A stretch of DNA of 29,079 nucleotides from a virus. The notes below the pieces were generated by a model. That model was not told the DNA's origin and ran no database searches. It saw nothing but the letters and a program-made list of their open reading frames with translations. The translations under genes were made by a program, and so were the position numbers. The stretch is from the IMG/VR virus record IMGVR_UViG_3300035388_000084, positions 1 to 29,079 of that record. One strand, 5' to 3'. Numbering within the stretch: position 1 is the stretch's first letter; each line of letters starts with the position of its first letter. Shown here one piece after another: positions 4,639 through 26,708 of the stretch.

Positions 4639-4820
4639 TACCAAAAAAGACATTTAACTCGGTGGTTGTTTGCCATGAATGTAAAGGGAAAGGTATTGTT
4701 TGGAAAAGAGAATTTAAAGGACACTCAAGGGGTTATGAATCAACCCCTGAAACCTGCCCGGTATGCAAAGGACATAAAGTATTAAATCGAAAAGTAACAG
4801 TAGAATTATTCACTATTTAA
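4635..4820 (+). CDS. DnaJ-type zinc-finger miniprotein
   Basis: 61 aa, consisting almost only of one DnaJ central-domain-like zinc site: CHECKGKG (Cys13, Cys16) and CPVCKGHK (Cys41, Cys44). DnaJ itself has two such CxxCxGxG pairs per site plus J and C-terminal domains, none of which are here, so this is not a chaperone by itself. Such stand-alone modules are common in phages, where they may bind a host protein or help fold a viral one. It overlaps the previous gene by 4 nt. Confidence 0.75.
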   Translation: MIPKKTFNSVVVCHECKGKGIVWKREFKGHSRGYESTPETCPVCKGHKVLNRKVTVELFTI

Positions 4821-4832
4821 ACACTATTTAAA
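4816..4832 (+). repeat. 17-bp palindrome copy 1 (upstream of DUF3164 gene)
   Basis: TTTAAACA-C-TATTTAAA, one mismatch from a perfect TTTAAACA-N-TGTTTAAA inverted repeat. It overlaps the stop of the zinc-finger gene and ends 2 nt before ATG 4835. It can also be read as two tandem 11-nt units, CACTATTTAAA. Confidence 0.8.
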
Positions 4833-4834
4833 CA

Positions 4835-5503
4835 ATGACAATGATTGATATTGAAAAATTGACCCCTGAACAGCAGGAACAAGCTTTGCAGCAATTGTTA
4901 GCTAAAAAAGAAGCTGAAAAGACCAGAGTAAAAGGAGATCGTATCGCTTATAAAGAATTGGCAGCAAAAGCGGTTAAAGAAATGTTTATTCCATTGCAAA
5001 ACACAAGTAGTGCCTTGTCGGATATTAAGAAACTTGTATTTGACAGTTTTGCTCACTTAATCGATATGAAAAAGGAGCTGTACGATGTAAAAGAAAACCA
5101 ACAAAGCCATACTTTTAGTAATGAAGAAGCTAGTAAGCGAATAACTGTTGGTTATAGAGTGCTTGATAGATACGATGATACCGCTGAGTCGGGTGTAGCT
5201 AAAGTACGAGAATATATGGATAGCCTTGCAAAAGATTCTGACACTGCAAAGCTTGTAAATATGATTAACTCATTGCTTAAACGTGATCCAAAAGGCAACT
5301 TAAAGGCTAATCGTGTATTGGAGCTTCAGAAACTAGCATCAGAAAGCGATTCTGAAACATTTAAAGACGGTGTACAAATTATTTCGGATGCTCACAAACC
5401 ACAAAAATCAAGTGATTTTATTGAAGCTGATTTTAAAGATGAGCATGGCAAATGGCATAGTGTTGCTTTAAGTATTTCATCTGTTGATTTTCCAAGTGTA
5501 TGA
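4835..5503 (+). CDS. DUF3164 family early phage protein
   Basis: A 222-aa protein of the DUF3164 family, a regular member of the early region of Mu-like and B3-like phages. The family-like core runs from about residue 40 to the end: a long helical region, then the conserved NSLLKRDPKGNLKANRVLEL stretch near 145-165 and a C-terminal strand region ending in WHSVALSISSVDF. The molecular function is not established; its place between transposition genes and GemA suggests a role in DNA metabolism or host take-over. ATG 4835 is followed by another ATG at 4841. A copy of the dispersed 17-bp palindrome ends 2 nt upstream, so this may be a regulated start. The stop overlaps the next gene by 4 nt. Confidence 0.85.
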   Translation: MTMIDIEKLTPEQQEQALQQLLAKKEAEKTRVKGDRIAYKELAAKAVKEMFIPLQNTSSALSDIKKLVFDSFAHLIDMKKELYDVKENQQSHTFSNEEASKRITVGYRVLDRYDDTAESGVAKVREYMDSLAKDSDTAKLVNMINSLLKRDPKGNLKANRVLELQKLASESDSETFKDGVQIISDAHKPQKSSDFIEADFKDEHGKWHSVALSISSVDFPSV

Positions 5504-5721
5504 GCGGAGTAAAAAAAGCGGCAGCCTTAACAGCATTACTAGATGTTTGTACGGATTACGAGCTGAAAGCAAGTACAAACGGACATACTCTAATAGTTAG
5601 ATTTGGTGAGTATGTGTACAATGAAGAAAAGGAGTTTTTGTACGACTTTGCACAGGAGCTAGGAACGTTTATGAGTAAGATGCCAAAAGAAGTAAAGGAA
5701 GAGTATTTTGTGCTAAGATAA
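5500..5721 (+). CDS. Small protein of unknown function
   Basis: 73 aa with a mixed alpha/beta look and an acidic C-terminal half. It starts inside the stop of the DUF3164 gene (4-nt overlap). Its stop codon (5719-5721) supplies the first base of the tRNA-like RNA fold downstream. No family recognised. Confidence 0.65.
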   Translation: MSGVKKAAALTALLDVCTDYELKASTNGHTLIVRFGEYVYNEEKEFLYDFAQELGTFMSKMPKEVKEEYFVLR

Positions 5722-5762
5722 ACCTGACTGGAAGTCGTCCCGGTTCGAGACCGGGACAGGTT
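5721..5762 (+). ncRNA. Compact tRNA-like three-way-junction RNA element
   Basis: Every base of this 42-nt stretch can be assigned to one junction. A closing stem AACCT/AGGTT (5721-5725 with 5758-5762) holds a mini-hairpin GACT-GGA-AGTC (5726-5736) and a 7-bp arm GTCCCGG/CCGGGAC (5737-5743 with 5751-5757) whose loop is TTCGAGA. That loop and the CCCGG/CCGGG stem are an exact tRNA T-arm pattern (GGTTCGA). There is no D arm or anticodon arm and no room for them, so it is not a normal tRNA. It lies in the 57-nt gap between two plus-strand genes. It may be an RNase P or tRNA-enzyme substrate, an mRNA processing site, or a captured tRNA 3' end. The structure is seen in sequence; transcription and role are not shown. 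Confidence 0.6.
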
Positions 5763-5778
5763 CAAAAAATATTACAAA

Positions 5779-6054
5779 ATGTTAGAGTGTAACAAAAAAA
5801 ACATAGTAGTAATTGGAGTTGGTTATTGTTTCGTAGGTAGAAAGCTTGCTTTATTATTACGTGCAAACTTGATTATTGCTCAAGAATATGAACAAGCAAG
5901 ATCAAATGCAAAATACCAACGTGAGCTTTCAATGAATAAGATAGTTAGTAAATTAGAAATGACTGAGCTACCTAAAAACCCATTTATTGAGAAAACACAG
6001 AAGGCACACAATAATAAATTTGCAAAAAGAGCAGCATTAAAAAGTAAATGGTAA
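5779..6054 (+). CDS. Small protein of unknown function
   Basis: 91 aa. The N-terminus is hydrophobic (NIVVIGVGYCFVGRKLALLL, residues 8-27) and could be a membrane segment or the first strand-loop-helix of a nucleotide-binding fold, although the protein is far too short for a full Rossmann domain. The remainder is basic and helical. It starts 16 nt after the tRNA-like element and ends just before the next gene. No family is recognised. Confidence 0.6.
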   Translation: MLECNKKNIVVIGVGYCFVGRKLALLLRANLIIAQEYEQARSNAKYQRELSMNKIVSKLEMTELPKNPFIEKTQKAHNNKFAKRAALKSKW

Positions 6055-6059
6055 GAACT

Positions 6060-6515
6060 ATGACTAAGATTAAAATTGAAGATCAAATAACATTTATCAC
6101 AGCTGAATATGACGCAAGTATGGAGCTTTCAACAATGGAAGAAAATTCCCATCATTATCTTAAAGATATGGATATGTACTCTGCTATTCTTAAAAATTTA
6201 AGACTGCTACAAAGTAACGATTTAGTGTTACAACGAAATTGCTTGCATTGCAAAGCTTCTTTTACAACTACAAACAGAAAACAGCAGTTTTGCTCGACTA
6301 ATTGCAGGGTTGCTTATTATAGGGCAAAAAACAGATTAAAAGAATTTACAGCAAGTGTTAATAAGATTCTTAGCGAAAAGGGAGTTGATCCTAAGTTTGC
6401 TGTTGGGGTTCTTATTGTGCCGGGAAAAGATTGCCCTTACGAAGTTGAGTATAAAGGTGCGATTTATAAAGGCAAATCTACACGTGAGATATTAACTAAA
6501 CTAAGAAAAATATGA
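6060..6515 (+). CDS. Zinc-finger (CxxC...FCSxxCR) protein, unknown
   Basis: 151 aa from ATG 6060; an in-frame ATG at 6048 would give 155 aa and overlap the previous gene by 7 nt. The central zinc site is CLHC (Cys61, Cys64) with FCSTNCR (Cys78, Cys82), followed by YYRAKNR. This pattern of a ribbon ending in a basic helix is common in small DNA-associated or phage proteins. The C-terminal ~60 residues may be a separate small domain. It overlaps the GemA-like gene by 4 nt. Function not known. Confidence 0.75.
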   Translation: MTKIKIEDQITFITAEYDASMELSTMEENSHHYLKDMDMYSAILKNLRLLQSNDLVLQRNCLHCKASFTTTNRKQQFCSTNCRVAYYRAKNRLKEFTASVNKILSEKGVDPKFAVGVLIVPGKDCPYEVEYKGAIYKGKSTREILTKLRKI

Positions 6516-6946
6516 GCTTAGATTCAAGAAAAATACAACGCTTTCATGCTATGCTTGATAAGTGTAAGCTGAAAGAACAAAAACGCAATATCCTGAACGG
6601 TCAGGGTGTTGAAAGCACGAAAGATTTAAGCGAAATGCAACTGGATGGATTAATCGCCTGGTTAAATTCCATGTTACAATGGAGCGAGTTTAAAGATCAT
6701 CAGTTTGCAACATTCGATATGAGTAATAAGTCGCATATGTACCTGTTGAGTTTATGTCAGGAATATGGATGGACTGTTTGGAATGAGAAAATGCAGCGTG
6801 AAGTTTCCGATCTAAATAAGCTTGGTGCATGGATCCGGAAGTGCAGTGCTGTAAAGAAGCCACTTTTACAGCAAGATAATGCAGATGTTCGAAAGACTAT
6901 CTATCAGTTTGCGCAAATGGTTAAGAAACATTTTGATAACAACTAA
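6512..6946 (+). CDS. GemA/gp16-like early regulatory protein (DUF1018-like)
   Basis: 144 aa. The N-terminal pattern, a helix with RKIQRFHAMLDKC, then LNGQGVESTKDLSEMQLDGLIAWLNSM, matches the layout of GemA (DUF1018) proteins of Mu-like phages, where a short basic helical domain precedes an LSE-type helix. The C-terminal half (a 'WIRKCSAVKKPL' helix and a final basic helix) also fits. In Mu this gene affects host DNA supercoiling and gene expression early after infection; the same role here is inferred. Its position after DUF3164 agrees. The match is by pattern, not by a search. Confidence 0.6.
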   Translation: MSLDSRKIQRFHAMLDKCKLKEQKRNILNGQGVESTKDLSEMQLDGLIAWLNSMLQWSEFKDHQFATFDMSNKSHMYLLSLCQEYGWTVWNEKMQREVSDLNKLGAWIRKCSAVKKPLLQQDNADVRKTIYQFAQMVKKHFDNN

Positions 6947-6952
6947 AACAAT

Positions 6953-7111
6953 ATGCCTATGAGTTATGAATTAGTATTTTTAATAAGCTGTATAGCTATA
7001 ATAGTTTGTTCGGCTTTCGCTTTGTATTTACAAGTTCGTTCGATACGAATGAGCAAACAAGATCAAAAAAACGGGATTTATGAAACTTATAAAAACATTA
7101 ATCTAATTTAA
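6953..7111 (+). CDS. 52-aa single-pass membrane protein
   Basis: A short gene filling the gap between the GemA-like gene and the next one: ATG 6953, TAA 7109-7111, with the next ATG directly abutting at 7112. Residues ~5-26 (LVFLISCIAIIVCSAFALYL) form one strongly hydrophobic helix, followed by a basic, polar tail of about 25 residues, so an N-out/C-in membrane anchor is likely by the positive-inside rule. Unknown role; superinfection or host-envelope effects are possible. Confidence 0.65.
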   Translation: MPMSYELVFLISCIAIIVCSAFALYLQVRSIRMSKQDQKNGIYETYKNINLI

Positions 7112-7516
7112 ATGAGAGAGTATATTTTTACATCACCTGAATTTACAGGTTTTATGAAATTTGGTTACGATGCCGAGGGTGTGCTTATTAAATATGAAAA
7201 CCAAGCGATACTGAGCACAGAACAGCAAGTCTATTTATCAATGGCTTTTCCGCTTACACAGGATGTTTTACCTAAAATAGTAAACAAAGGCAAACTTTTA
7301 GATTGTACAGATTTGTCTTTTGAACGATTTTGGGAAGAGTATGGTTATAAAAAATCAAAAGCTGAAGCTGAAAGGTATTGGAGAAAAATGCCCGAAAACG
7401 AAAAGTTAAAAGCCGTATCAGGCATTAAACGTTACATGTATGACTGTAAAAAGCATAATCGTGATGTTCTTTATGCAGTGAGGTATTTACGCAACATGCG
7501 TTACATGGATGAATAA
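7112..7516 (+). CDS. Replication-organiser-like C-terminal domain protein
   Basis: 134 aa. Residues ~70-125 (FERFWEEYGYKKSKAEAERY, then WRKMPENEK and a helical tail) match the 'FxxFWxxYPxKxxKxxAxxxW' pattern often seen at the C-terminus of phage replisome-organiser and DnaT/DnaD-like proteins. The N-terminal ~65 residues are a different, strand-rich part. The pattern suggests a helix-loading or DNA-replication accessory role, but the usual N-terminal winged helix is missing, so this is only a hint. It begins immediately after the membrane-protein gene. Confidence 0.6.
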   Translation: MREYIFTSPEFTGFMKFGYDAEGVLIKYENQAILSTEQQVYLSMAFPLTQDVLPKIVNKGKLLDCTDLSFERFWEEYGYKKSKAEAERYWRKMPENEKLKAVSGIKRYMYDCKKHNRDVLYAVRYLRNMRYMDE

Positions 7517-7547
7517 TTAAGTGAATAATTAATAATTAGTAATTAAT

Positions 7548-7772
7548 ATGGCTTACAATCGTGAAAACTTCTTAGAAAAGGTACTTGTTATTCAAACGAT
7601 TTATCTTGAGCATAGTGATAATTTGTCGAATAGAAAAATATTTGAACTGTATATCAAACCCCGTTTTATAAGTATTACAGAACGTACTTTTTATAAGTAT
7701 CTAGCCATTAATGCAAAAAAAGAATTAAAACAAATTAAGAAAATTAAAGAGAGCCAAATGGCATTATTTTAA
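7548..7772 (+). CDS. Small basic helical protein, possibly HTH
   Basis: 74 aa, basic, with a helical N-terminus, a central FISITERTFYKYLAINAKKE stretch that resembles a helix-turn-helix recognition segment, and a lysine-rich end. A DNA-binding role is plausible. It is preceded by a 31-nt AT-only-looking spacer containing repeated TAATTA motifs. Family not recognised. Confidence 0.65.
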   Translation: MAYNRENFLEKVLVIQTIYLEHSDNLSNRKIFELYIKPRFISITERTFYKYLAINAKKELKQIKKIKESQMALF

Positions 7773-7782
7773 AATCAAACAA

Positions 7783-7986
7783 ATGGAAAATTTAACATTA
7801 GAAACATTAGAAAAAGACAAAATTGAACTTGTAGCACAACAACAGCAAGTAATTGGTCAATTAAACCAACTTAACGATCAGAAAGTGGAAGCTATTGCAC
7901 AGGTAAATATGATTAATGGAGCAATGCAGTTTGTCGAGCAAAAAATTGATGCTATTAAGAATCCCAAAAACGAAAATAAAAAATAG
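7783..7986 (+). CDS. Small coiled-coil protein, unknown
   Basis: 67 aa, rich in Gln, Glu and Lys, with clear heptad character through residues 5-58 (two helices separated near residue 32). It probably forms a dimeric coiled coil or helical hairpin. It sits 10 nt after the previous gene in the early operon. The function is unknown. Confidence 0.6.
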   Translation: MENLTLETLEKDKIELVAQQQQVIGQLNQLNDQKVEAIAQVNMINGAMQFVEQKIDAIKNPKNENKK

Positions 7987-8008
7987 TATCTTAGTGTAAA
8001 CTTAAAAA

Positions 8009-8413
8009 ATGAATATGGACGACCAAAACAAACCAAGTTCTAAAGAAAAATTACGAGCAATGTTAATAACAGCAGCAATGTTTTCTGTTGTTATTATTTT
8101 TTTTGGAGTGATAATGTTTAGAGGCTGTAGTGATGATAATGCTAGAGAAGAAAAAAGACAGGTGAGAATGGAAATTATTAAAAAATTTGATGAAATATCA
8201 GTTGAGAGAGATGCTCCGCACAAACTCTCTGTTGATATTCTTCTCAAAAAAGAGCTAACAGAAATTGAACTTCGAGAAATAGCAAATTTAATTTATAGTA
8301 ATAAAACAGGAGAAAATTATCAAAGAGTTTTCATTACTTGTTATCTACATGGATCACCGTGGGCTACAGCTCATTTTGATCCTGATCTTGAAATAAAAAT
8401 CAAAAGTTTTTGA
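8009..8413 (+). CDS. Single-pass membrane protein with soluble C-terminal domain
   Basis: 134 aa. After a polar N-terminus comes a membrane helix (AMLITAAMFSVVIIFFGVIM, residues 17-36), then Arg-Gly-Cys-Ser. The ~95-residue exported or cytosolic domain ends in the pattern 'YQRVFITCYLHG...PWATAHFDPDLEIKI', which I have seen as a recurrent domain of unknown function in many bacterial and phage membrane proteins. The Cys after the helix could suggest a lipobox, but the helix is too far from the N-terminus for a normal lipoprotein. It is the last gene of the rightward early block. ATG 8009 and ATG 8015 are both possible. Confidence 0.7.
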   Translation: MNMDDQNKPSSKEKLRAMLITAAMFSVVIIFFGVIMFRGCSDDNAREEKRQVRMEIIKKFDEISVERDAPHKLSVDILLKKELTEIELREIANLIYSNKTGENYQRVFITCYLHGSPWATAHFDPDLEIKIKSF

Positions 8414-8429
8414 TTTTGTAAAATAATCA

Positions 8430-8446
8430 TTTAAACAGTGTTTAAA
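8430..8446 (+). repeat. 17-bp palindrome copy 2 (perfect)
   Basis: TTTAAACA-G-TGTTTAAA, a perfect 8-bp inverted repeat around one base, 17 nt after the stop of the last early gene and just before the terminator. This is the best copy of the dispersed motif. Confidence 0.85.
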
Positions 8447-8450
8447 CAAA

Positions 8451-8478
8451 AAGCCCCTTAAATTAAGGGGCTTTTTTT
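8451..8478. terminator. Bidirectional intrinsic terminator
   Basis: A perfect stem AAGCCCCTTAA / TTAAGGGGCTT (8451-8461 with 8463-8473) followed by T residues on the plus strand and preceded by A residues, so it works in both directions. It sits between two convergent genes (plus stop at 8413, minus stop at 8477) and separates the early operon from the inverted head block. Confidence 0.92.
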
Positions 8479-8884
8479 ATGGTTCGTAGTTAACTTGTGC
8501 TTTAAAGTCGAGTATCAGGGTAAATTTCCCTCCATGTTTTTTAATGTCTTCACCTGTGAGTGTAACGCCTGTTATGTAGGTTATTGCTTCGTTAAGCATT
8601 TTTGTTTTAACAAGCTTAATTACATCAAGACTTTCATATAGCTTTGTTAATACAGGTTCAGGAGTATCTGCTGCTGACCGATGATAAGGAGTAATATCTA
8701 CTTTAACAGTAAATGGAAACTCTCCAAGCATAGTTCCTTCGGTTAATTGTTCCCAAGGGATTTTGCCAAGTGAAATAAAAGCCGATGGACTTGTTTTAAT
8801 TTCTTCGCTTCCATCAATATCAATGTATTTTAATTCTTCAATCTCATTTAGTTTTTCTGCAATACTTAAATAAAGTTCAATCAT
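8477..8884 (-). CDS. Tail-terminator-like / head-tail completion protein
   Basis: 135 aa, mixed alpha/beta. It has the look of small tail-completion proteins (gpU or Mu gp37 type): an N-terminal helix, a strand region with PSAFISLG, a long strand (FPFTVKVDITPY), a helix, and a terminal strand. In this family the protein caps the tail and joins it to the head. It is the last gene of the inverted block, directly after the Mu G-like gene (10-nt gap), which fits. The assignment rests on size, fold pattern and position, and no diagnostic motif is seen. Confidence 0.5.
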   Translation of the reverse strand: MIELYLSIAEKLNEIEELKYIDIDGSEEIKTSPSAFISLGKIPWEQLTEGTMLGEFPFTVKVDITPYHRSAADTPEPVLTKLYESLDVIKLVKTKMLNEAITYITGVTLTGEDIKKHGGKFTLILDFKAQVNYEP

Positions 8885-8894
8885 AGTTTTAGTA

Positions 8895-9341
8895 TTAAGA
8901 TTTCATTATATCAGTCATCCTTTTGCGTGTTTTATCACGCATGTGATCAATTAATATTTGTGATTTACCAATAAATTGTCTTTTAGCCATTTTAAAGCCT
9001 TTTCCTCGCCCTGCATGCAAACCTTTATTGTGTACCTCGGCATATATCTTATCGCTTTTAATAGCCACGTCACGTCCTTGTTTTTCGTAGTCAATTGAGT
9101 TACCAAGCTCGCTTGTTTCGCCAGTAAGAATTTTACGTTTTGATGCTGCTTTACCTGTACCTTTGGTATTTTTTCTTCGTTTCACCTCTTTCCAAGGCAT
9201 ATCCTTTTCGCTTTTATTGGAGAATGCTTCATTATCAAAAGATTCTTTAAAATGATGAACAGCTTCAGTACCAACAACGTCCTGTACATCGTTCTGAATG
9301 AAATTATTGAGCTTATTTATCTTATTTATAAAATCTTGCAT
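8895..9341 (-). CDS. Phage virion morphogenesis protein (Mu G-like)
   Basis: 148 aa, matching the phage virion morphogenesis/tail-completion family that includes Mu gpG and P2 gpS. Family features are visible in order: a PWKEVKRR stretch after a helical N-terminus, KRKILTGETSELGNSIDYE near residues 88-106, DKIYAEVHNKGLHAGRGKGF, and MAKRQFIGKS near 118-127. The family acts in joining heads and tails. It lies between Mu F and the tail-terminator-like gene in the leftward block. The 104-nt leader ahead of it contains the opposite-strand small-RNA locus, which would be antisense to this gene's leader. Confidence 0.85.
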   Translation of the reverse strand: MQDFINKINKLNNFIQNDVQDVVGTEAVHHFKESFDNEAFSNKSEKDMPWKEVKRRKNTKGTGKAASKRKILTGETSELGNSIDYEKQGRDVAIKSDKIYAEVHNKGLHAGRGKGFKMAKRQFIGKSQILIDHMRDKTRKRMTDIMKS

Positions 9342-9345
9342 TAAC

Positions 9346-9377
9346 TTGACAATTAATTAAATTATGTTGTATATTTG
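9346..9377 (+). promoter_or_regulatory. Bacteroidota-type promoter of the small-RNA locus
   Basis: TTG at 9346-9348 and TATATTTG at 9370-9377, separated by 21 nt. This fits the Bacteroidota sigma-ABfr consensus of a -33 TTG and a -7 TAnnTTTG. It points right, against the flanking leftward genes, and predicts a start near 9382-9384, the first bases of the RNA stem. Confidence 0.7.
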
Positions 9378-9381
9378 CATT

Positions 9382-9455
9382 GAGACCTGTTGGTTAAAAG
9401 CGTACCGGTTTGCTTAACCGGAAACTTCTTTTAGCTATCAGGTCTCAGCTTTTTA
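9382..9455 (+). ncRNA. Putative 70-75-nt small RNA with own promoter
   Basis: The predicted 5' end pairs with the 3' end: TGAGACCTG (9381-9389) with CAGGTCTCA (9439-9447), 9 bp, followed by a GCTTTTTAA tail that could end transcription. Inside, two hairpins compete for the same bases: CCGGTT/AACCGG (9405-9410 with 9416-9421, loop TGCTT) and GGTTAA/TTAACC (9392-9397 with 9414-9419). The stretch 9422-9438 is left single-stranded. It lies in the gap between Mu F and Mu G genes, antisense to them, and overlaps the Mu F stop by 3 nt. The layout of promoter, closed structure and T-run is that of a regulatory RNA; expression and target are not known. Confidence 0.6.
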
Positions 9456-10605: not shown

Positions 10606-10612
10606 GGGATTG

Positions 10613-11905: not shown

Positions 11906-11908
11906 GAT

Positions 11909-12310
11909 TTAATATCTTTTACTTATTCCACCGTACTTTATTTCCGTATTCTCAGGTTCACTTACCGATAATTTGGGAATATCGTGTAATACTATTTCGC
12001 CTTTGCGAATATCTTTTAATGTTGTTTTTGCGTAATCGTATCGCTCACGTCTTATTACTGGCACTTCTTCCAGCACTGCATGAATATGGTATAGGGCAAT
12101 ATCAATTACAGCATTTTTTATTAATGCGTTTCTGTCTGCTGCTGTTTGTGCCCACAATGTTTCGGTATTGTAACGAGTGTTTAAATACGAGTCGGCTTCA
12201 TCAATTGCTAGTGCAATATTTTCATTATTATGATTTGGGTTTTCTCTTGCAATTGCACCCAGCACCTCGCTGTAAATACTTTTCCCTAAATCTTCTTCTT
12301 CAATAAACAT
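11909..12310 (-). CDS. DUF1320 protein (Mu gp36-like)
   Basis: 133 aa of the DUF1320/Mu gp36 family, thought to be a head-tail connector adaptor. Family features: an N-terminal helix, the AIDEADSYLNTRYN segment (residues ~35-48), a helical ADRNALIKNAVIDIALYHIH stretch and a VIRRERYDYAKTTLKDIRKG segment (~83-105). In Mu it lies after the capsid gene; here it is moved ahead of the portal. A copy of the 17-bp palindrome abuts its start codon on the upstream side. Confidence 0.85.
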   Translation of the reverse strand: MFIEEEDLGKSIYSEVLGAIARENPNHNNENIALAIDEADSYLNTRYNTETLWAQTAADRNALIKNAVIDIALYHIHAVLEEVPVIRRERYDYAKTTLKDIRKGEIVLHDIPKLSVSEPENTEIKYGGISKRY

Positions 12311-12311
12311 G

Positions 12312-12328
12312 TTTAAATGGTGTTTAAT
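12312..12328 (-). repeat. 17-bp palindrome copy 3 (upstream of DUF1320 gene)
   Basis: Read on the minus strand: ATTAAACA-C-CATTTAAA, three mismatches from the perfect palindrome. It starts at the last base of the large terminase stop region and ends 1 nt before the DUF1320 ATG. Confidence 0.65.
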
Positions 12329-13851: not shown

Positions 13852-13931
13852 TTAAGGGCTAATTTTAATGTTTTGCTGTTTTAATGGGATAGTTGTACCA
13901 TTTTTGAATTAAAGTTTAATTTAAACGGCAT
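13852..13931. promoter_or_regulatory. Spacer between small and large terminase
   Basis: An 80-nt AT-rich gap in an otherwise tight leftward operon. Apart from palindrome copy 4 at its right edge I see no clear promoter box or T-run terminator. Being longer than its neighbours' gaps, it may hold a minor start for the terminase-portal mRNA. Confidence 0.3.
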
Positions 13932-13936
13932 TTAAA
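13920..13936 (+). repeat. 17-bp palindrome copy 4 (end of small terminase)
   Basis: TTTAAACG-G-CATTTAAA on the plus strand. It overlaps the stop codon of the small terminase gene (13932-13934) and precedes the large terminase leader. Unlike copies 1, 3, 5 and 6 it does not abut a start codon. Confidence 0.7.
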
Positions 13937-17008: not shown

Positions 17009-17009
17009 T

Positions 17010-17543: not shown

Positions 17544-17545
17544 GT

Positions 17546-17785: not shown

Positions 17786-18104
17786 AAAATACTTTGATAG
17801 TCATCCAAAAGAAAAAGAATTCCATTTTACAAAGGATGGTCTTGCTTTTCGAAATAAGGGTACTGCTGAACAGCACCAAAAAACCTTAACAGGTAAAATT
17901 ACAGGTGTTGAATCGGTTAAGCGCAACGAGAAAGTAGAAAAGCCTGAGGAGGTTGAGAATAAACTTTCTGAGATGAAATCAGAAGAATTAGAAGCTCTTT
18001 TAGTTGAAACTCAGCAGTTGTTAACTGATGCCGATGAAGCTGATAAGGATGCTTTGGAGTTAAAGCTTGTTGAGATTGAAGTTGCAATTGAAAATTTAGA
18101 CTAA
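17769..18104 (+). CDS. Small acidic protein upstream of sheath, unknown
   Basis: 111 aa from ATG 17769, which has the clearest Shine-Dalgarno in the window (AAGGAG about 12 nt upstream); the frame is open upstream to 17727 but that part lies inside the spanin-like gene. The N-terminal ~35 residues (FHFTKDGLAFRNKGTAEQHQ) form a small compact motif. The acidic C-terminal half is two or more helices rich in Glu and Leu. It ends 1 nt before the sheath gene. Its position suggests a head-tail or tail completion role, but the family is not recognised. Confidence 0.65.
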   Translation: MKANHKKYFDSHPKEKEFHFTKDGLAFRNKGTAEQHQKTLTGKITGVESVKRNEKVEKPEEVENKLSEMKSEELEALLVETQQLLTDADEADKDALELKLVEIEVAIENLD

Positions 18105-18105
18105 G

Positions 18106-19296
18106 ATGGGTGGAATTCCAAATGTATCATTTGAATATGGTGAAAGTGCATTAGGTGGAATTAATCCAACTGCTGACGGCATTGCCGGGTTAATTGTACC
18201 CGGTATTGCTGTCGCAGGATTGGCACTTTCTACTCCTAAAGCCGTTTTTAGCCTTGCTGAAGTGGAAGCTTTAGGCATTAATGAAGCTTACGATACTGCA
18301 AACAGCGTGAATGCTTATGCCGAGATAAAGGATTTTTATTCTTGGATGGGTGATAGTGCTGAATTGTGGATTATGATTGTAACACAAGATACTCTGCTTG
18401 CCGATATTTGCGACAAAACCAAAGACCTTGCAAAGAAACTATTACTTAACTGCAATGGTAGAATCAAAATTTGGGGTGTTTCTATAATGCGTTCGGTAGG
18501 ATATGTTCCTGTTATTACTGATGGTATTGATGCTGATATATGGGCAGGTTCTTTAAATGCTCAAGCATTGCGTGAAGAAATGGCAATGAACTATTTTATA
18601 CCTACTCGTGCAATTTTACCTGCTCGTGCTTGGGATGGTGAGGCTGCAAACCTTAAAGACTTGAAATTAAGCTCTGAAAATGGGGTTCAATTTACTATGC
18701 ATGGAAGAGCAGGATCAAAAGAAGCTCGTGTTGGATTCTTACTGGGCTTATATGCCGTAATTTCTGTACAACGTAATCCGGGGCGTGTACGTTCGGGTGA
18801 TCTTGGATTAGCTGAAGGAGCTGTTTACTTAACCGATGGTGTTAGTACTCCTGAAACAATTGGAGCTGTTCAAAACACTATTCACGATAAAGGATATCTT
18901 TTCCCTATAAAGCGATTTGGTAAGAACGGTTATTTCTATAACGATGATCCTATAGCAACATCTAACGCAGATGATTTTGTAAGTTTTGCTCGTGGTAGAG
19001 TAATGGATAAAGTACAGCGTTTAGCTTATGAATCTTATCTTGAGTTTATAAACGATGATTACGAAACTGAGCCTGATGGAAGCATAAGCCCAGTTGAATT
19101 GAAACGTTTGCAAGGAGGTATTGATGATCTTGTAAATGCAGAGATGACAGCTGCAAAAGAAATCAGCGGTTTCCGTTCTCTTGTTCCCTTAGTTCAGGAT
19201 GTTGTAGGTAAAACGAAAGTAATACTTAAAGTACGTCCAAGGGCTTATCATAAAGAAATTAATGTTGAATTAGGATTTGAAACAACTAGTGAATAA
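18106..19296 (+). CDS. Contractile tail sheath protein (DUF2586)
   Basis: 396 aa of the DUF2586 type, a tail sheath family distinct from the larger P2 and T4 sheaths. Order of features: a glycine-rich start (GIPNVSFEYGESALGG), a helix-rich middle with SWMGDSAELWIMIV, an IPTRAILPARAW segment, LLGLYAVISVQRNPGRVRSG, and a C-terminal RPRAYHKEINVELGF strand, the region that in sheaths donates a strand to a neighbour. It forms the contracting outer tube and makes this a myovirus-type particle. Its stop overlaps the tube start by 1 nt. Confidence 0.88.
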   Translation: MGGIPNVSFEYGESALGGINPTADGIAGLIVPGIAVAGLALSTPKAVFSLAEVEALGINEAYDTANSVNAYAEIKDFYSWMGDSAELWIMIVTQDTLLADICDKTKDLAKKLLLNCNGRIKIWGVSIMRSVGYVPVITDGIDADIWAGSLNAQALREEMAMNYFIPTRAILPARAWDGEAANLKDLKLSSENGVQFTMHGRAGSKEARVGFLLGLYAVISVQRNPGRVRSGDLGLAEGAVYLTDGVSTPETIGAVQNTIHDKGYLFPIKRFGKNGYFYNDDPIATSNADDFVSFARGRVMDKVQRLAYESYLEFINDDYETEPDGSISPVELKRLQGGIDDLVNAEMTAAKEISGFRSLVPLVQDVVGKTKVILKVRPRAYHKEINVELGFETTSE

Positions 19297-19739
19297 TGGC
19301 TTTTAGTACAAAAACAGCGCAATACGCATGGAAAAATCTCAAGTTATTAGTCGATGGTCGATTAATAACAGAGTTAACGGATATTGAATACGGTTCTGAA
19401 AAGAATTTAGAAGAAATATTCGGAGCTGGTGATGAAGCTCAGTTCATTGGCGAAGGAAATAAAACGACTTCAGGAAGCATGGAAATGCTTCAAAGTGGTT
19501 ACGAGGCTCTTGTTGAAGAAGCTAAGAAACGTGGTGGTAATGATGTTACGGATTTAGAAGTAACGGCTGTTATTGCTTATATCCCAAAAACAACTGATAC
19601 TGCTTTGCTTAATAAAACGATTGTTGACCGTGCTGTCGGCATTAAGTTTTCAAAGGGAGGTAAGAAATTTAGCCAGGGAAATACGCACATAAAAGTAGCT
19701 CTTCCTTTTAAGGCTTTGCGAATTGAAAATCAAATTTAA
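19296..19739 (+). CDS. Tail tube protein (Mu M-like)
   Basis: 147 aa. A beta-rich protein with the tube pattern: KNLKLLVDGRLITELTDIEYG at the N-terminus, a long loop FGAGDEAQFIGEGNKTTSGS, and a terminal strand pair NTHIKVALPFKALRIENQI. It would polymerise into the inner tube around the tape measure. Directly coupled to the sheath gene, as in Mu (L then M). Good confidence from position and fold pattern. Confidence 0.82.
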   Translation: MAFSTKTAQYAWKNLKLLVDGRLITELTDIEYGSEKNLEEIFGAGDEAQFIGEGNKTTSGSMEMLQSGYEALVEEAKKRGGNDVTDLEVTAVIAYIPKTTDTALLNKTIVDRAVGIKFSKGGKKFSQGNTHIKVALPFKALRIENQI

Positions 19740-19743
19740 ATTG

Positions 19744-19760
19744 TTTAAACACTGATTAAA
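19744..19760 (+). repeat. 17-bp palindrome copy 5 (at chaperone start)
   Basis: TTTAAACA-C-TGATTAAA, one mismatch from the perfect palindrome. It overlaps the A of the ATG at 19760 and fills the 20-nt gap between tube and tail-chaperone genes. Confidence 0.75.
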
Positions 19761-20143
19761 TGAAAGAACAGGAAGAAAAGAAAAAAGCAATCGAGAAAAA
19801 TAAAATAACGATTTCTGAGCGACATCAAGCGAATATAAAAGTATGGAAATCCAAATATGGTAAAGTAAAGCCTTTAGCATTTGTTGAAGGTGAAGAGGTT
19901 AAAGTTATGTTTTTTAGGATTCCAACCCGTGAGGAGTTATCGGCTGCTGAAACTTTGGCAACAAACGAATCAGGAGATGTTGATTTATATACAAAGGCTG
20001 AAAAAACAATGGTTGACTGTTACCTTGGTGGTGACATGAAACTTGAACATATTATAGCCGATGTTGAATTCTTTATGCCAGTAGCTAAAAAAGTTCTTTA
20101 TGAGCTTGTCGTGGAAAAAAAAACGATCTGGATCGACTGCTAA
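19760..20143 (+). CDS. Tail assembly chaperone, short form
   Basis: 127 aa, acidic/helical, made when the ribosome does not shift. It lies between tail tube and tape measure genes, the fixed place for tail assembly chaperones (lambda G, Mu gp41). The N-terminal ~30 residues are charged and helical; a VKVMFFRIPTREELSAAETL region follows. The short form would coat the tape measure during tail growth and is usually absent from virions. Its end overlaps the slip site for the long form. Confidence 0.8.
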   Translation: MKEQEEKKKAIEKNKITISERHQANIKVWKSKYGKVKPLAFVEGEEVKVMFFRIPTREELSAAETLATNESGDVDLYTKAEKTMVDCYLGGDMKLEHIIADVEFFMPVAKKVLYELVVEKKTIWIDC

Positions 20144-20310
20144 CAAAAGCAAAAAAACAAGTACAAGAAGGCTCTGTACAATATATTAATACGCAACTAC
20201 AGTATTACAATGTATGTGCAGAGCCTAATAGTTTAACAGATTACGAGTGGGCTTTAAAATACGCTATGCTTGAAGATATTCGCCAAAAAGAGAAAAACAC
20301 AGTAGAATAA
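19760..20310 (+). CDS. Tail assembly chaperone, -1 frameshift fusion
   Basis: A -1 shift on A_AAA_AAA (20116-20122) within nine A residues lets the ribosome miss the 20141 stop and read 62 more residues (starting NDLDRLLTKAKK, ending QKEKNTVE) to the stop at 20308-20310, 1 nt before the tape measure ATG; total 183 aa. The extra part has no early ATG of its own and reads as a charged helical domain, as the T part of lambda GT does. The organisation is conserved in tailed phages. Confidence 0.85.
20116..20122 (+). other. Slippery heptamer for programmed -1 frameshift
   Basis: A_AAA_AAA in the zero frame, inside an A9 run (20115-20123). A small stem CGAT-CTGG-ATCG (20124-20135) follows directly and may help stall the ribosome. 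No strong pseudoknot is obvious. Confidence 0.75.
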
Positions 20311-20311
20311 C

Positions 20312-22645: not shown

Positions 22646-22685
22646 ATCTCATGAACACCTATAAAAAATTAAATATTAGTGAATA

Positions 22686-23282
22686 ATGGATGAGTTCGAT
22701 TTAAAAAAGATATATAACAATATAGCAAGTTATAAAGGCTTGCCTTTCCCCGTTCTTCCAAGAAATATTTCTTCTTATGAAGAAACAGGAAAAAAAATTG
22801 CAGCTATTCTTAAAGGTGAAAAGGATGTTCGTGATTGGTATGGTCGACCTTTTATTGCTCATGCGACTCTTGGAGGTGTTGAGCTAGGGAGTTCAAAGGA
22901 AGATCATATAATGATACAGCCTTTGATTTTATTTGAAGGTCATAAGGATATTGAGAAAACCAAAATTGAAGCCGGTACTTATCCTGGTACAATGAAAGAA
23001 TTTATCAGTTTTGGGGATTATAAATTGAAAATTTACGGTGCTTTAATTAACCGAAATCAAAAGGAATATCCATACGATCAGGTTCGAATACTTAAAGATA
23101 TTTGGCAGCGCAATGTTGCTTTAACATTTGATTGTTATATATCTCAGGAGTTATTTGATTATGTAGTAATCGAAAAAATAAAGTTTAAGGAGTTAACTAA
23201 AAGTCCTGGTTGGCAAATGTATGAAATTGAAGCTGTAAGTGATGGTAATTTAGAAGTTGAATATTTAAAAGGCGATGCTTAG
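22686..23282 (+). CDS. Baseplate-proximal protein (position of Mu N)
   Basis: 198 aa, mostly beta with a helical start. It lies right after the tape measure, where Mu carries N (gp43), and its stop overlaps the hub gene by 8 nt. The middle has a strand-rich region (IMIQPLILFEGHKDIEKTKI) and IKIYGALINRNQKEYPYDQV-like strands. The match to a named family is not certain; by position it is a baseplate or tail-tip component. Confidence 0.6.
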   Translation: MDEFDLKKIYNNIASYKGLPFPVLPRNISSYEETGKKIAAILKGEKDVRDWYGRPFIAHATLGGVELGSSKEDHIMIQPLILFEGHKDIEKTKIEAGTYPGTMKEFISFGDYKLKIYGALINRNQKEYPYDQVRILKDIWQRNVALTFDCYISQELFDYVVIEKIKFKELTKSPGWQMYEIEAVSDGNLEVEYLKGDA

Positions 23283-24243
23283 TCCAAAATGCAATATAAT
23301 CATTAATAACAACCTTAAAATAAAAGGTTGTGGAGGCTTTGTTGTAGATAAAGATGTGGAAAACCTATCTGTGGTAGGTCATGTTAATCTTCCATTGCAT
23401 GCAATCTATCGCAAATCTACAAGCAGAAATATTCTAGTTCTTCAGGATGAAATAAAAGAGGGTGATTTAATTACCATTGAAGCCGGATATTTGGAGGATG
23501 AAATATTTCAGGTGTTTAAAGGATATGTAACAGTAATTCAAAAAGGCACACAGCTAAAACTTCAAATTGAAGATGCTATTTATTTATTGCGCAAAAAGCC
23601 AGTTGTAATCAATAAAAAGGATATTGATTTAAAAGACTTGATTAGCTTGCTTATTGAAGGAACTGGTCTTATTGTTTCTGACAAAACGAATAGTATAAAA
23701 ATTGATTCTTTCAAATATAAAGGCAATGCTGCCGGGGCATTAGCAAAGTTAAAAGAGAGCTTGTCCTTAACTATTTACTTCGATTCTAACAATGAGCTTT
23801 ACGCAGGTGGTCAACAGTTAAATCCTAAAGGAAAGATTAAAGCTATTTACGGGCGTAATATCATAAAGAACAATACAAAATACCAAACAAAGGATGCAAA
23901 TCCGGTGCAGGTGGAAGTAATAGGTAAAAAAGCCGATAATACAGAGGTTAAAAAGATTGTAGGTATGGAAGGTGGCTCAAAGTACACTCTTTACAAATAC
24001 AATGTTACCAATGAGAATGCATTGCAAACCATTGGTGAAGAGTATTTAAATAAGTATTCTTTTGATGGTTTTAAAGGTAAGCTTAAAATGTTCTTTATTC
24101 CATTTGTCGAACCAGGAGGATCTGTTGAGTATGAAAACGGAAATTATGAAGATAAGTCAGGTACTTATTTTGTAAAAGGCGTGAAATACAGTTTAAGCAA
24201 AGGATTAAAACAAGAAATTGAAATAGGAGCTAAATTATTATGA
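23275..24243 (+). CDS. Baseplate hub protein (Mu gp44/P-like)
   Basis: 322 aa with the fold pattern of gpD/gp27-type hubs: two beta-barrel domains, the first in residues 1-110 (strands such as LITIEAGYLEDEIFQVFKGY), a helical insertion (KKDIDLKDLISLLIEGTGL), then a second barrel with SVEYENG and GTYFVKGVKYSLS. It would form the trimeric centre of the baseplate on which the spike sits. It is followed at once, by a 4-nt overlap, by the spike gene. Order P then gp45 agrees with Mu. Confidence 0.75.
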   Translation: MLSPKCNIIINNNLKIKGCGGFVVDKDVENLSVVGHVNLPLHAIYRKSTSRNILVLQDEIKEGDLITIEAGYLEDEIFQVFKGYVTVIQKGTQLKLQIEDAIYLLRKKPVVINKKDIDLKDLISLLIEGTGLIVSDKTNSIKIDSFKYKGNAAGALAKLKESLSLTIYFDSNNELYAGGQQLNPKGKIKAIYGRNIIKNNTKYQTKDANPVQVEVIGKKADNTEVKKIVGMEGGSKYTLYKYNVTNENALQTIGEEYLNKYSFDGFKGKLKMFFIPFVEPGGSVEYENGNYEDKSGTYFVKGVKYSLSKGLKQEIEIGAKLL

Positions 24244-24845
24244 CAGAAGGTAAAATTGTAAACCAACTTCAAGAGCTTATTAAAAAGCTTATTCCTGCAT
24301 CTTTCACAGGTAAAGTGCTTAGTGTAGATGAAGAAAAAGGTGAAGCTGTTGTTTTGTTTAATGAGCTTGAGTATGATGTAAAGCTTAAATCAATTATCGA
24401 TAAATCTGAGTACGGTGTTTTTGTTATTCCTGAAGCTGAAAGTGATGTGTTTTGCATTCCTGAAGGATTAGATCAGGAAAGATATTTTGTTGCAGGAGTT
24501 AATAAGGTAGCTAAAGTTATTGTAAAAATGCAGAATCTTGATTTTGTAATGGATAATGAAGCAAAAAGCCTGAAGGTAACCAATGGAAATACTGCTTTTG
24601 AGCTTAACGATGCACTAGCTCAATTTAATGATGGTGATAATGGAGGACTTGTTAAAATAACTGATTTAGTAACGAAAATTAATAATCTTGAGACTAAAGT
24701 AAATGATCTTATAACAAAATTAAAGGCGGTGGTTGTTCCATTAGCTCCATCAGGAACGTATCCGTTTTCAACTGTTTTCGGATCAGTAGTAAATTTAACT
24801 CAGACAAAAAAGTCTGATTTGGAAAATGAAAAAGTAAAACACTAA
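24240..24845 (+). CDS. Baseplate spike, gpV/Mu gp45-like
   Basis: 201 aa. Residues ~17-85 look like an OB-fold (FTGKVLSVDEEKGEAVVLFN, ... YGVFVIPEAESDVFCIPEG), the collar of phage spike proteins. Then a VTNGNTAFELNDALA segment and a coiled-coil-like helix with repeated LVTKINNLETKVNDLITKL (~145-165), ending in an Asn/Ser/Thr-rich tail. Unlike P2 gpV no obvious HxH iron site or repeating beta-helix is visible, so the membrane-piercing tip may be elsewhere or short. Overlaps both neighbours. Confidence 0.7.
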   Translation: MTEGKIVNQLQELIKKLIPASFTGKVLSVDEEKGEAVVLFNELEYDVKLKSIIDKSEYGVFVIPEAESDVFCIPEGLDQERYFVAGVNKVAKVIVKMQNLDFVMDNEAKSLKVTNGNTAFELNDALAQFNDGDNGGLVKITDLVTKINNLETKVNDLITKLKAVVVPLAPSGTYPFSTVFGSVVNLTQTKKSDLENEKVKH

Positions 24846-25141
24846 TGAGAGATTATTTACAAGACGAAAATAACGACCTAGTACTTGTTAATGGTGATTT
24901 TAAAATAACCGAAAGTACTCAGCAACATCAAAAGGATTTGCTTATATCACGTAAGTGTGATTATAAGTTAAAGCTTGTTGGTGTGGATATTTACAGTGCT
25001 TTGTTGGATGATGACCAGGAGAATCTTCCGGGCACTATAAGAAAGGAATTTACAAACGATGGAATGACCGTTAACTCTATTTCATTAGACAACGGAAAAC
25101 TAAAAATAGATGCACCTTATGAAACAGATAACAACAGTTAA
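24845..25141 (+). CDS. Baseplate wedge protein (Mu gp46 / gp25-like)
   Basis: 98 aa with the small gp25-like fold: a DLVLVNGDFKITESTQQHQK start, QKDLLISRKCDYKLKLVGV helix-loop, and a closing GMTVNSISLDNGKLKIDA strand set. In T4 this protein ties sheath to baseplate; in Mu gp46 holds the same place. Starts on the last base of the spike stop and overlaps the next gene. Confidence 0.75.
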   Translation: MRDYLQDENNDLVLVNGDFKITESTQQHQKDLLISRKCDYKLKLVGVDIYSALLDDDQENLPGTIRKEFTNDGMTVNSISLDNGKLKIDAPYETDNNS

Positions 25142-25391
25142 AGGTCAAACATTAACCGATATATCTATTCAGGAATATGGAACTGCACTTGCTGTATTTG
25201 AGATTATTGAAAACAATCCTAATCTTTTAAATGATTTTGGTGCAGATGAATCATTAATCGAGGATGTAACACAACTTGATGTCGGTTATCCATTACGCAA
25301 AAATCAGATTGTTCTTATCGATACTGACAGCGATCTAGTAAATAAAACAAAGCTCAGAGAATTAAATAGTGAAATTATTATAAGTGAGTAG
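25119..25391 (+). CDS. LysM-like tail protein (gpX-like)
   Basis: 90 aa from ATG 25119; an earlier in-frame ATG at 25110 would add three residues. The sequence TTVKGQTLTDISIQEYGT at the start and IVLIDTDSD further on give a LysM-like pattern (beta-alpha-alpha-beta), as in P2 gpX, which stabilises the hub or binds the cell wall. It overlaps the wedge gene by 23 nt and ends 2 nt before the baseplate J-like gene. Confidence 0.7.
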   Translation: MKQITTVKGQTLTDISIQEYGTALAVFEIIENNPNLLNDFGADESLIEDVTQLDVGYPLRKNQIVLIDTDSDLVNKTKLRELNSEIIISE

Positions 25392-25393
25392 TT

Positions 25394-26191
25394 ATGGCAC
25401 AAAGAACGATTGACGAAATAAAGCAAGGAATAATTGACAGGCAGCCTTCAAAGTTTCCTGAACTTTCAAGCAGTAATGCTGCTGAATGGAGTTTGTGGCT
25501 CGATGTTGTTGCATATGCAATATGGCTTTTTGAAGGTATAATGATTGTTTTCAAAAAAGATATTGAAAGTAAACTATCAACAAAGAAACCTGGCAGTATT
25601 GCTTGGTTAGTTGAAAAAGCTTATGAGTTTCAGCTTGATTATGATTTAACTGTAGATGACAAAGGAATATTAAAATACAATATGCTCGATGAAAGTGCGA
25701 AAATCATTAAAAGAGTAAGTGCTATTGAAAGTGATGGGGTAATATCATTAAAGGTTGCTAAAATCGATAGCCAGGGTAATTTAGTGCCATTATCAACGGA
25801 TAATGGTGAGTTTCTACAATTTCAAAGATACATTGACAGTGTTAAATATGCAGGTACTAATTTCAATATTGTATCACTCGATGCCGATACAATTAAATAT
25901 GTTGTAGATGTATATTTTGATCCTGTTTACTTAGAAGCTACAATTCAATCTAATTTAGACACAGTATGTGATGAGTATAGATTAGGGCTTGATTTTAATG
26001 GTGTAGTTTATCGCTCAGAATATTATGAAAAGATACTTTCTGCTCAAGGTGTTGTAACAGCAAAAATAACATCGTTTGACGGTATTCATGGAGGAAATAC
26101 AGAAAATATTGATATAAAACGACTGCTAACTTCAGGTTATTTTAATTATGATGAAGCCAGTGTATTTAATCTTATTAATAATAACGAATAA
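25394..26191 (+). CDS. Baseplate J-like protein (Mu gp47-like)
   Basis: 265 aa. It lies between the LysM-like gene and a gp48-like gene, the place of Mu gp47. The N-terminal helical part (AEWSLWLDVVAYAIWLFEGI, ~30-50) and the strand-rich middle (LKVAKIDSQGNLVPL) with TADTIKYVVDVYF-like strands and a helical end fit a baseplate J/gp6-like wedge that joins fibres and sheath. It is shorter than the usual ~350-380 aa, so a domain may be missing or reduced. Confidence 0.65.
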   Translation: MAQRTIDEIKQGIIDRQPSKFPELSSSNAAEWSLWLDVVAYAIWLFEGIMIVFKKDIESKLSTKKPGSIAWLVEKAYEFQLDYDLTVDDKGILKYNMLDESAKIIKRVSAIESDGVISLKVAKIDSQGNLVPLSTDNGEFLQFQRYIDSVKYAGTNFNIVSLDADTIKYVVDVYFDPVYLEATIQSNLDTVCDEYRLGLDFNGVVYRSEYYEKILSAQGVVTAKITSFDGIHGGNTENIDIKRLLTSGYFNYDEASVFNLINNNE

Positions 26192-26679
26192 TGATTATCA
26201 ATTTTTCAACAGATCAGTTTATTGAGCGTTTCGTTCCACTGTATAAAAAAACAAACACCCGTTTAAAGTGGTTGCGATTCTTATTGTCAGAATTAAAAGC
26301 AATGTGGCAAGATTTCTATAACTGGCGTAAAGACTATTATTACAGGCTTAATATTACCGGGCAAACCCTGTTGTTGGAGTATCATTTAAATAAAGTTATT
26401 CCTGGAGCAAATGGTAGTATTAGAATAAAGCATTACACTGATCAAGGTGTACATGTGGCTCTTGAGAGTGAGGTTATTCCAAGTGTTTCAGTTGGTTTAA
26501 TAGATACTCTTGGTGAAGAAAGTAACTATATCCTTGCTGCATTAGAAGGTGAGATACAAGCAAATTTCAATGTTGGTTTTAAGGTTTATGTGCCTACTGG
26601 CATTAATGTAAATGAGGTTGCAGGTGAAGTAAACACCTTTAAATTAGGTGGCATAAGTTATGAAATAGTAGAAGCTTAA
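26191..26679 (+). CDS. Baseplate wedge/fibre-adaptor protein (Mu gp48 position)
   Basis: 162 aa, overlapping its predecessor by 1 nt. The N-terminal half is helical with many Trp/Arg/Tyr (FIERFVPLYKKTNTRLKWLR, AMWQDFYNWRKDYYYRLN), the second half strand-rich. In Mu the equivalent slot is filled by gp48, which joins fibre to baseplate. No decisive motif, so the role rests on order. The fibre gene follows after a 31-nt gap holding palindrome copy 6. Confidence 0.6.
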   Translation: MIINFSTDQFIERFVPLYKKTNTRLKWLRFLLSELKAMWQDFYNWRKDYYYRLNITGQTLLLEYHLNKVIPGANGSIRIKHYTDQGVHVALESEVIPSVSVGLIDTLGEESNYILAALEGEIQANFNVGFKVYVPTGINVNEVAGEVNTFKLGGISYEIVEA

Positions 26680-26691
26680 TATTTATAGGCA

Positions 26692-26708
26692 TTTAAACAG
26701 TATTTAAA
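26692..26708 (+). repeat. 17-bp palindrome copy 6 (upstream of fibre gene)
   Basis: TTTAAACA-G-TATTTAAA, one mismatch from perfect, ending 2 nt before ATG 26711, the same placement as copy 1. Confidence 0.8.

Follow-up and report, generated by a model that had tools for sequence, protein, structure and literature searches.

In Mu-like transposable phages from several groups of bacteria, gene boundaries are marked by tandem arrays of the hexamer TTTAAA, phased at 11 bp. Because they sit at these boundaries and seldom occur in the host chromosomes examined, the arrays look like a common signal that has been overlooked. The window analysed here (29,079 nt, positions 1 to 29,079 of IMG/VR record IMGVR_UViG_3300035388_000084) comes from a Winoviridae-like transposable phage that has core genes in common with Winogradskyella phage Peternella_1; the terminases are 46% identical, and the head, tail and transposition genes are collinear. 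The window starts and finishes on stop codons, apparently as a result of provirus trimming, and the repressor and both termini are therefore missing from it.

Tandem TTTAAA boxes in the window

The initial annotation described six dispersed 17-bp palindromes in short intergenic gaps, and all six are present. With up to 3 mismatches allowed, TTTAAACANTGTTTAAA has 9 matches in the window compared with 1.77 expected, and none of the shuffles reached 9. Non-coding DNA makes up 4.0% of the window, but 6/9 matches are centred there (P ~3e-7), including all four with 0–1 mismatch. The proposed gap location thus holds for the six sites, as does the placement of four of them 0–2 nt from start codons. 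Two details change: the site at 13920 has 3 mismatches rather than 1, and overlap with a stop codon, reported for one site, is seen at both 13920 and 4816.

A more accurate description of the six sites is a series of TTTAAA boxes in tandem, spaced at 11 bp. They can also be read as direct repeats, TTTAAAC-N4-TTTAAAC, and since TTTAAA is itself palindromic, any two boxes resemble a 17-bp palindrome. A weaker third box accompanies several of the sites (ATTAAA at 13909, TTTATA at 26682 and an extra TTTAAA at 19735). The helical-turn spacing noted earlier is retained, while a single dimeric palindrome is too narrow a description for arrays of 2–5 boxes spanning 17–60 bp. The sites are dispersed, phage-specific, gap-located and rare in host DNA, and several are conserved at the corresponding gaps of related phages (Table 1), as expected of a DNA-binding site; this part of the first proposal is supported. 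An Rfam search of the window gave no matches.

Table 1. Phased arrays and the MuB-type gene in the window, with occurrence of the arrays in relatives (G001, G002, prophage G468 and MT835523)
Feature	Position	Strand	Context	Relatives
2-box array, TTTAAA-CACTA-TTTAAA	4816..4832	+	2 nt before ATG 4835 of DUF3164 gene; overlaps stop of preceding gene	Same gap in G001 (contig 7869); directly upstream of DUF3164 orthologue in prophage G468
2-box array, perfect 17-bp palindrome	8430..8446	.	Convergent gap, just before Rho-independent terminator hairpin; no annotated start codon downstream	Same place in G001 (contig 12446)
2-box array, ATTAAA-CACCA-TTTAAA (minus strand)	12312..12328	-	1 nt before ATG of gp36-like gene	Absent from equivalent gap of G001
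3-box array, ATTAAA, TTTAAA, TTTAAA	13909..13936	.	Overlaps stop of terminase-small-like gene, ~70 bp before terminase gene	3 boxes at same stop codon in G001 (contig 18393-18420)
3-box array, TTTAAA, TTTAAA, ATTAAA	19735..19760	+	Runs into ATG 19760 of tail-chaperone-like gene; first box at 9-bp spacing	Same gap in G001, G002 and MT835523
3-box array, TTTATA, TTTAAA, TTTAAA	26682..26708	+	2 nt before ATG 26711 of tail-fibre gene	Absent from 4-bp gap of G001
TATTTAA, cut right edge of record	29073..29079	+	Stop of DNA methylase gene and first part of expected right-end array	TATTTAAACACTGTTTAAAC (further array) at matching position in G001
MuB-type AAA+ transposition protein	2557..3693	+	phrog_296 E 5e-33, AAA_22 E 6e-18, TniB E 4e-5	

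Distribution of the phased arrays

Across 61 non-redundant Winoviridae-like Mu-like phages, pairs of TTTAAA at 11, 22 and 33 bp number 83, 48 and 19, respectively, versus ~3 at most other spacings. TTTAAA is the only palindromic hexamer phased in this way in these phages, and it ranks top among all hexamers as well. The rarity in hosts on which a phage-specific site depends was also observed, with 107 pairs/Mb in the phages versus 1.9/Mb in seven Bacteroidota genomes. Five unrelated Bacteroidota phages show no TTTAAA phasing. A host-wide motif was rejected: four host-related genomes hold 0–3 copies (≤1 mismatch), and no 11-bp pair occurs in ~360 kb of non-prophage host DNA. A transposase search of genome contigs gave no matches, while order- and family-wide genome searches gave one distant prophage.

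A search of 2.9 million viral contigs for four boxes in phase yielded 111 stretches, compared to 9 with the reversed pattern as a control. The linkers between boxes differ in 92/106 of the four-box stretches, and these arrays are thus not simple repeats. A MuB-type transposition gene (phrog_296, E <1e-30) was found in 35/50 tested four-box contigs, versus 0/8 reversed-pattern contigs and 0/5 non-transposable control phages. Some array-bearing contigs have no phrog_296 match; in many cases, these are short fragments or simple repeats.

The suggestion that such sites had not been described in Mu-like phages agrees with the literature searches we made, and yet Mu itself has arrays. It contains 6 phased TTTAAA neighbours at 11 bp, versus 0.07 in shuffles, with arrays in the gaps A|B, T|35 and 46|47 and beside the strong gyrase site. 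D108 shows the same phasing.

Arrays usually adjoin start codons. Some 26 of the 34 arrays in long gaps (an approximate count) lie within 30 nt of one, with box positions peaking at -17, -8 and -28. Arrays are also found at right ends, in 8/9 phages whose right ends are intact, and in convergent gaps, where, as at the right ends, there is no annotated start codon. Arrays inside genes were rejected as additional sites. The 25 interior 11-bp pairs all share a single reading frame, and most encode F-K-x-x-L-N/K peptides, with many belonging to one family (FKYDLNG); coding therefore largely accounts for them. A six-frame stop device was also rejected, because 12-bp spacing is allowed and 13–14 bp is not enriched, the opposite of what it would require.

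A possible role in marking phage DNA

Our preferred explanation, which we hold tentatively, is that the arrays are DNA-level sites engaged by the MuB-type AAA+ protein. It draws on the phasing, the four-box scan and its link to MuB-type genes, the Mu and D108 arrays, the low frequency in host genomes and the right-end arrays. Boxes spaced at 11 bp would face the same side of the helix and act at the level of DNA, where they could be engaged by machinery that all of these phages need. The most likely reader would be the MuB-type transposition protein, alone or with nucleoid proteins, and the engaged arrays might then mark phage DNA as self or organise it into a protected domain. In the window, the product of the gene at 2557..3693 is the candidate, which we infer from the genomic association of arrays with MuB genes. 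MuB has a preference for A/T DNA and occupies the Mu interior (PMC2837660). Counting against this explanation, MuB has been described as non-sequence-specific, and its loss breaches Mu genome immunity only mildly (PMC7350765). The strong start-codon anchoring in Bacteroidota phages is not explained by MuB, and the few short arrays in each genome would be thin coverage for a mark of the whole genome. The array-bearing contigs without a phrog_296 match count against it too. More doubtful is the specific proposal that phased arrays are the feature by which MuB-type proteins, from Mu to the Bacteroidota phages, recognise the phage's own DNA and that they nucleate filaments or a domain protecting against self-insertion.

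The DUF3164 protein was considered as another candidate and rejected. It is a core protein (25/25 phages), and an array precedes its gene in a few phages; its AlphaFold model (pLDDT 89) has no PDB fold match and no sign of a known DNA-binding fold.

If MuB-type recognition is correct, the arrays would constitute a sequence code common to transposable phages whose hosts are distantly related, and one that had been overlooked in phage Mu. If they are instead gyrase or regulatory sites, they would still serve to identify transposable phages and offer a convenient tool for Mu genetics in E. coli.

Alternative explanations

The main rival, itself rather doubtful, ties the arrays to DNA wrapping by gyrase. 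In Mu and D108, the annotated gyrase cut site at 17879 has a TTTAAA cluster immediately next to it, at 17894-17932, and work cited in PMC12393610 proposes that the Mu gyrase site works through phased anisotropic bending sites. Convergent ends, right ends and terminators, where arrays occur, are also places that fit supercoil stress. The known gyrase motif, however, is ~130 bp long with phased G/C content (PMC12393610), compared with 17–60 bp for the arrays, and gyrase sites would be expected in host chromosomes too, where the arrays are rare.

It is unlikely that the arrays are operators for some other transcription factor of phage or host, distinct from the immunity repressor, that controls or blocks transcription where genes and operons meet. 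Their gap location, the same-face 11-bp spacing also seen in tandem operators and the position of many arrays downstream of terminators and ahead of start codons would all fit such a role, but we found no transcription factor common to all these phages, and the box stays the same in phages whose regulators are unrelated.

A shared translation-start sequence had also been suggested, in which tandem TTTAAA in the leader would act as an RNA-level enhancer. This suggestion holds in part: one TTTAAA at -17 is common to Bacteroidota start regions in general, whereas the phased repeats are not. The peaks relative to start codons favour it, and in Bacteroidetes an A-rich stretch at -14 to -11 and A-3 are known to act positively (PMC6847099). 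Against it, controls with a -17 box have a phased copy at 0/26 starts, compared with 15 upstream and 12 downstream phased copies at 125 starts in the phage family studied here, and E. coli Mu and phages of other groups, which use Shine-Dalgarno starts, carry arrays too. Right-end and convergent-gap arrays also argue against it. An RNA hairpin between boxes was rejected because pairing covariation at the linker ends does not exceed chance (40 vs 31.8 ± 4.6 and 28 vs 32.8 ± 4.2). A translation signal alone does not explain the arrays, and we consider this rival quite unlikely.

The initial annotation favoured stoperators on the model of mycobacteriophage L5, with the phage's own repressor as the binding protein, and this is not supported. 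Dispersal in short gaps and rarity in the host are in keeping with it, but the repressor/ner control gaps of ~15 relatives contain no phased arrays, and several of these gaps hold other palindromes. Repressors also differ between phages, while the TTTAAA box does not change. The absence of arrays from the repressor control gaps makes stoperators very improbable. Finally, chance or base composition merits practically no weight: AT-rich genomes contain many TTTAAA and the in-gene pairs largely reflect peptides, but the phasing is not reproduced in shuffles, in reversed-pattern scans, in host genomes or in control phages.

Comparison with known systems

When compared to the Bacteroidota translation-start region (A-3, A-6, A-12/-13), a box at -17 places AAA at -14 to -12, and the arrays are likewise anchored at start codons. 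The known feature corresponds to one box, however, and includes neither phased copies, nor right-end or convergent-gap arrays, nor arrays outside Bacteroidota, as in Mu and D108. The stoperators of L5 (cluster A) resemble the arrays in being short sites scattered over narrow intergenic gaps of a phage and rare in host DNA. They differ in being asymmetric 13-mers, read by a monomeric repressor and present at promoters too (PMC9283540), whereas here the boxes are tandem palindromes, the same across phages with unrelated repressors and absent as arrays from the early/repressor control region.

The strong gyrase site of Mu adjoins TTTAAA boxes and has phased bending sites proposed to matter for gyrase wrapping. 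This class of site is a gyrase cleavage site between phased bendable arms of ~50 bp; in Mu, the TTTAAA cluster lies beside it. There is one central site per Mu, while the arrays are short, several per genome and placed at gene boundaries and ends. With the A/T-rich DNA preferred by MuB, the arrays share A/T boxes in transposable phages whose interior, in Mu, is occupied by MuB; the literature passages on this preference give no defined sequence or phase. Lastly, the MuA end-binding sites (attL/attR) are also repeated sites in transposable phages. These are confined to the termini and have the terminal-repeat sequence, TGTGTGACA in G001 and the GTACAATTCGATTT type in Peternella, whereas the arrays differ in sequence and are mostly internal, with the right-end arrays sitting just inside the MuA sites.

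The unit of the repeats

The terminase, head, tail and transposition genes of the window phage group it with gut relatives and with a member of the Winoviridae, Winogradskyella phage Peternella_1. For its B gene, the match is to profile phrog_296, which represents MuB-type DNA transposition proteins. The 29-kb record, a virus contig, has a stop codon at each edge (1 and 29079) and looks like a provirus that was trimmed. Its closest relative, G001 (transposases 80% identical), appears to be integrated in host DNA; a sigma-factor protein in the host flank has its best match in Puteibacter caeruleilacunae.

We find all six sites that the initial annotation described as 17-bp palindromes at the positions it gave (see the table), although site 13920 has three mismatches rather than one. 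With up to three mismatches, TTTAAACANTGTTTAAA matches the window 9 times versus 1.77 expected. With genes called as simple ORFs, non-coding DNA makes up 1167 of 29,079 bases by a hand-made gene list and holds the centres of 6 of the 9 matches, including all with 0-1 mismatch. The single palindrome is nevertheless not the unit: two boxes 11 bp apart look palindromic because TTTAAA is its own complement, and the rows of three to five boxes in relatives show that the unit is a TTTAAA box plus a spacing.

Pooled over 61 non-redundant relatives (983 kb), the counts of exact TTTAAA pairs are 83 at a spacing of 11 bp, 48 at 22 bp and 19 at 33 bp; spacings of 10 and 12 bp give 16 and 19, and most others roughly 3 each. 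Spacing peaks of this type are absent from all 63 other palindromic hexamers tested in these relatives, and TTTAAA ranks top among all hexamers for phasing. Gaps (165 kb) contain 61 pairs at 11 bp and 31 at 22 bp; gene interiors (976 kb) contain 37 at 11 bp, and in-gene pairs share one frame and mainly reflect coding, with many encoding FKYDLNG. This peptide is spelled TTTAAA-N5-TTTAAA in about 14 phages, in relatives of one window gene family, and is a coding source of phased pairs.

The expectation that sites are kept at the same gaps holds in part, as five positions recur among relatives, but 12312 and 26692 have no counterpart in G001. The sites of G001 lie in its phage part, with none in 12 kb of flanking host DNA. 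The gene for the DUF3164 protein is a core gene in 25 of 25 phages compared; the protein is predicted to have a long coiled coil and an alpha/beta domain, and has no PDB match. The tail-chaperone-like gene and the other-frame stretch that follows it resemble the known frameshifted pair of Mu.

Features in the window phage, its relatives (G handles, Peternella and accession MT835523) and phage Mu
Feature	Genome	Position
Six 17-bp sites	window	4816-4832, 8430-8446, 12312-12328, 13920-13936, 19744-19760, 26692-26708
Site before DUF3164	window, G001, prophage G468	
Site before tail chaperone	window, G001, G002, MT835523	
Site at terminase small stop	window, G001	
Site in convergent gap	window, G001	
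Site after DNA methylase, right end	G001, Peternella	
Three-box row	G001	18393-18420
Four-box row	Peternella	39564
Five-box row	G553	
Phased boxes, A/B gap	Mu	3310-3345
Phased boxes, T/35 gap	Mu	about 20084-20100
Phased boxes inside two genes	Mu	
Pair at 22 bp with TTTAAC between, 46/47, running into ATG of gene 47	Mu	29816-29843
Further box cluster, adjoining annotated gyrase cut site	Mu	17894-17932
DUF3164 protein	window	4835-5503
Family with FKYDLNG in relatives	window	7112-7516
Tail-chaperone-like gene, then other-frame open stretch before tape-measure gene	window	19760-20310
Conserved non-coding element	window; G001	250-315; 3094-3165

Distribution among hosts and phages

TTTAAAN5TTTAAA is rare in host DNA, as anticipated, with 69 copies in 35.7 Mb of seven host-group genomes (1.9/Mb) versus 102 in 0.95 Mb of 26 phage records (107/Mb), where the reversed pattern, a control motif, has 1 copy. 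No box pair at 10-12 bp occurs among the 443 TTTAAA copies of five unrelated Bacteroidota phages (230 kb). By comparison with these control genomes and phages, which are few in number, the phased-box element is a specific trait of transposable phages and sits for the most part at gene boundaries.

In the viral collection, the exact 17-mer occurs in 108 stretches, at least 27 of which can be assigned to the window phage's family on the strength of three or more core genes; the contigs L020, L112 and L038 are other such stretches, from Mu-like phages that have genes of the Portal_Mu, Mu-transpos_C and MuB types. A four-box scan returns 111 stretches versus 9 for the reversed pattern, and linkers differ in 92 of the 106 read. 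Because the phrog_296 profile matches in 14/14 control genomes, only strong matches were counted: 35 of 50 four-box contigs match at E below 1e-30, with no strong match in eight reversed-pattern contigs or five control phages, and contigs without phrog_296 are often fragments. Assignment of contigs outside Bacteroidota is based on gene content and on Mu and D108. For phage Mu, phased neighbours at 11 bp number 6 versus 0.07 in shuffles (largest shuffle value 1); D108 shows the same pattern but, as a close relative of Mu, is not independent.

One phage, L054 / L067 (IMGVR_UViG_3300010362_000051), carries 10 perfect and several near-perfect TTTAAACANTGTTTAAA copies and has no MuB match. These are two-box sites only, mostly near gene starts, and probably represent a different, phage-specific regulatory site.

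Separately, we observe tRNA-like minihelices (acceptor plus T-arm, ~48 nt, e.g. TCCCAAACGGTTTAAAGCGTGGTTCGATTCCACGCTGGGAACA) in the relatives G557, G543, G556, G542, G555, G536, G537, G551 and G468. A single phage has as many as four, which sit in gaps of the early genes and ahead of transposase A; 360 kb of host DNA contains none. At this place (250-315, corresponding to G001 3094-3165), the window has a non-coding element with 90% conservation, CCCCGA...TCGGGGAGCA.

Possible functions of the arrays

Stoperator-like binding by the phage's own repressor, as first proposed, is not borne out: the repressor/ner gaps of relatives, where readable, have no phased array, several contain other palindromes, and repressor sequences differ among relatives. 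Passages retrieved from a paper on the hankyphage CI-like repressor make no mention of such sites.

The second proposal, a translation-start sequence, would explain the position of some boxes. Over 1362 phage starts, TTTAAA peaks at -17, -8 and -28, and the -17 box is a general feature, present in unrelated control phages too; an A-rich stretch at -14 to -11 is known from Bacteroidetes (PMC6847099). Among the starts compared, however, phased copies are found only in this family, where 125 starts with a -17 box have 15 exact copies 11 bp upstream and 12 downstream, versus 0 at 26 control-phage starts and 0 at 7 host starts. Of 9 phages with an intact right end, 8 have an array there, after the last stop codon and before the terminal repeats, in some cases fused with a terminator hairpin, and such arrays are unlikely to be start signals. 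Translation alone does not account for the arrays.

Database proviruses often lack right-end arrays because their records are trimmed at stop codons; several relatives are cut in the same way as the window. The right ends of Peternella, G541, G539, G549, G550 and G553 have the common terminal sequence CGATTATA, preceded in several of them by two GTACAATTCGATTT-like repeats, and these right-end repeats are likely transposase end sites.

From the sequence pattern, we infer that the boxes are bound by a protein on one face of the DNA. A limited search of the open-access literature returned no earlier description of phased arrays. The main rival to binding by MuB is that the arrays serve gyrase wrapping, because the Mu gyrase site was proposed to act through phased bending sites (PMC12393610). 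MuB would be the first candidate, since transposition proteins are what these phages have in common; a Mu domain depends on MuB and nucleoid proteins as well as on the gyrase site (PMC3820752).
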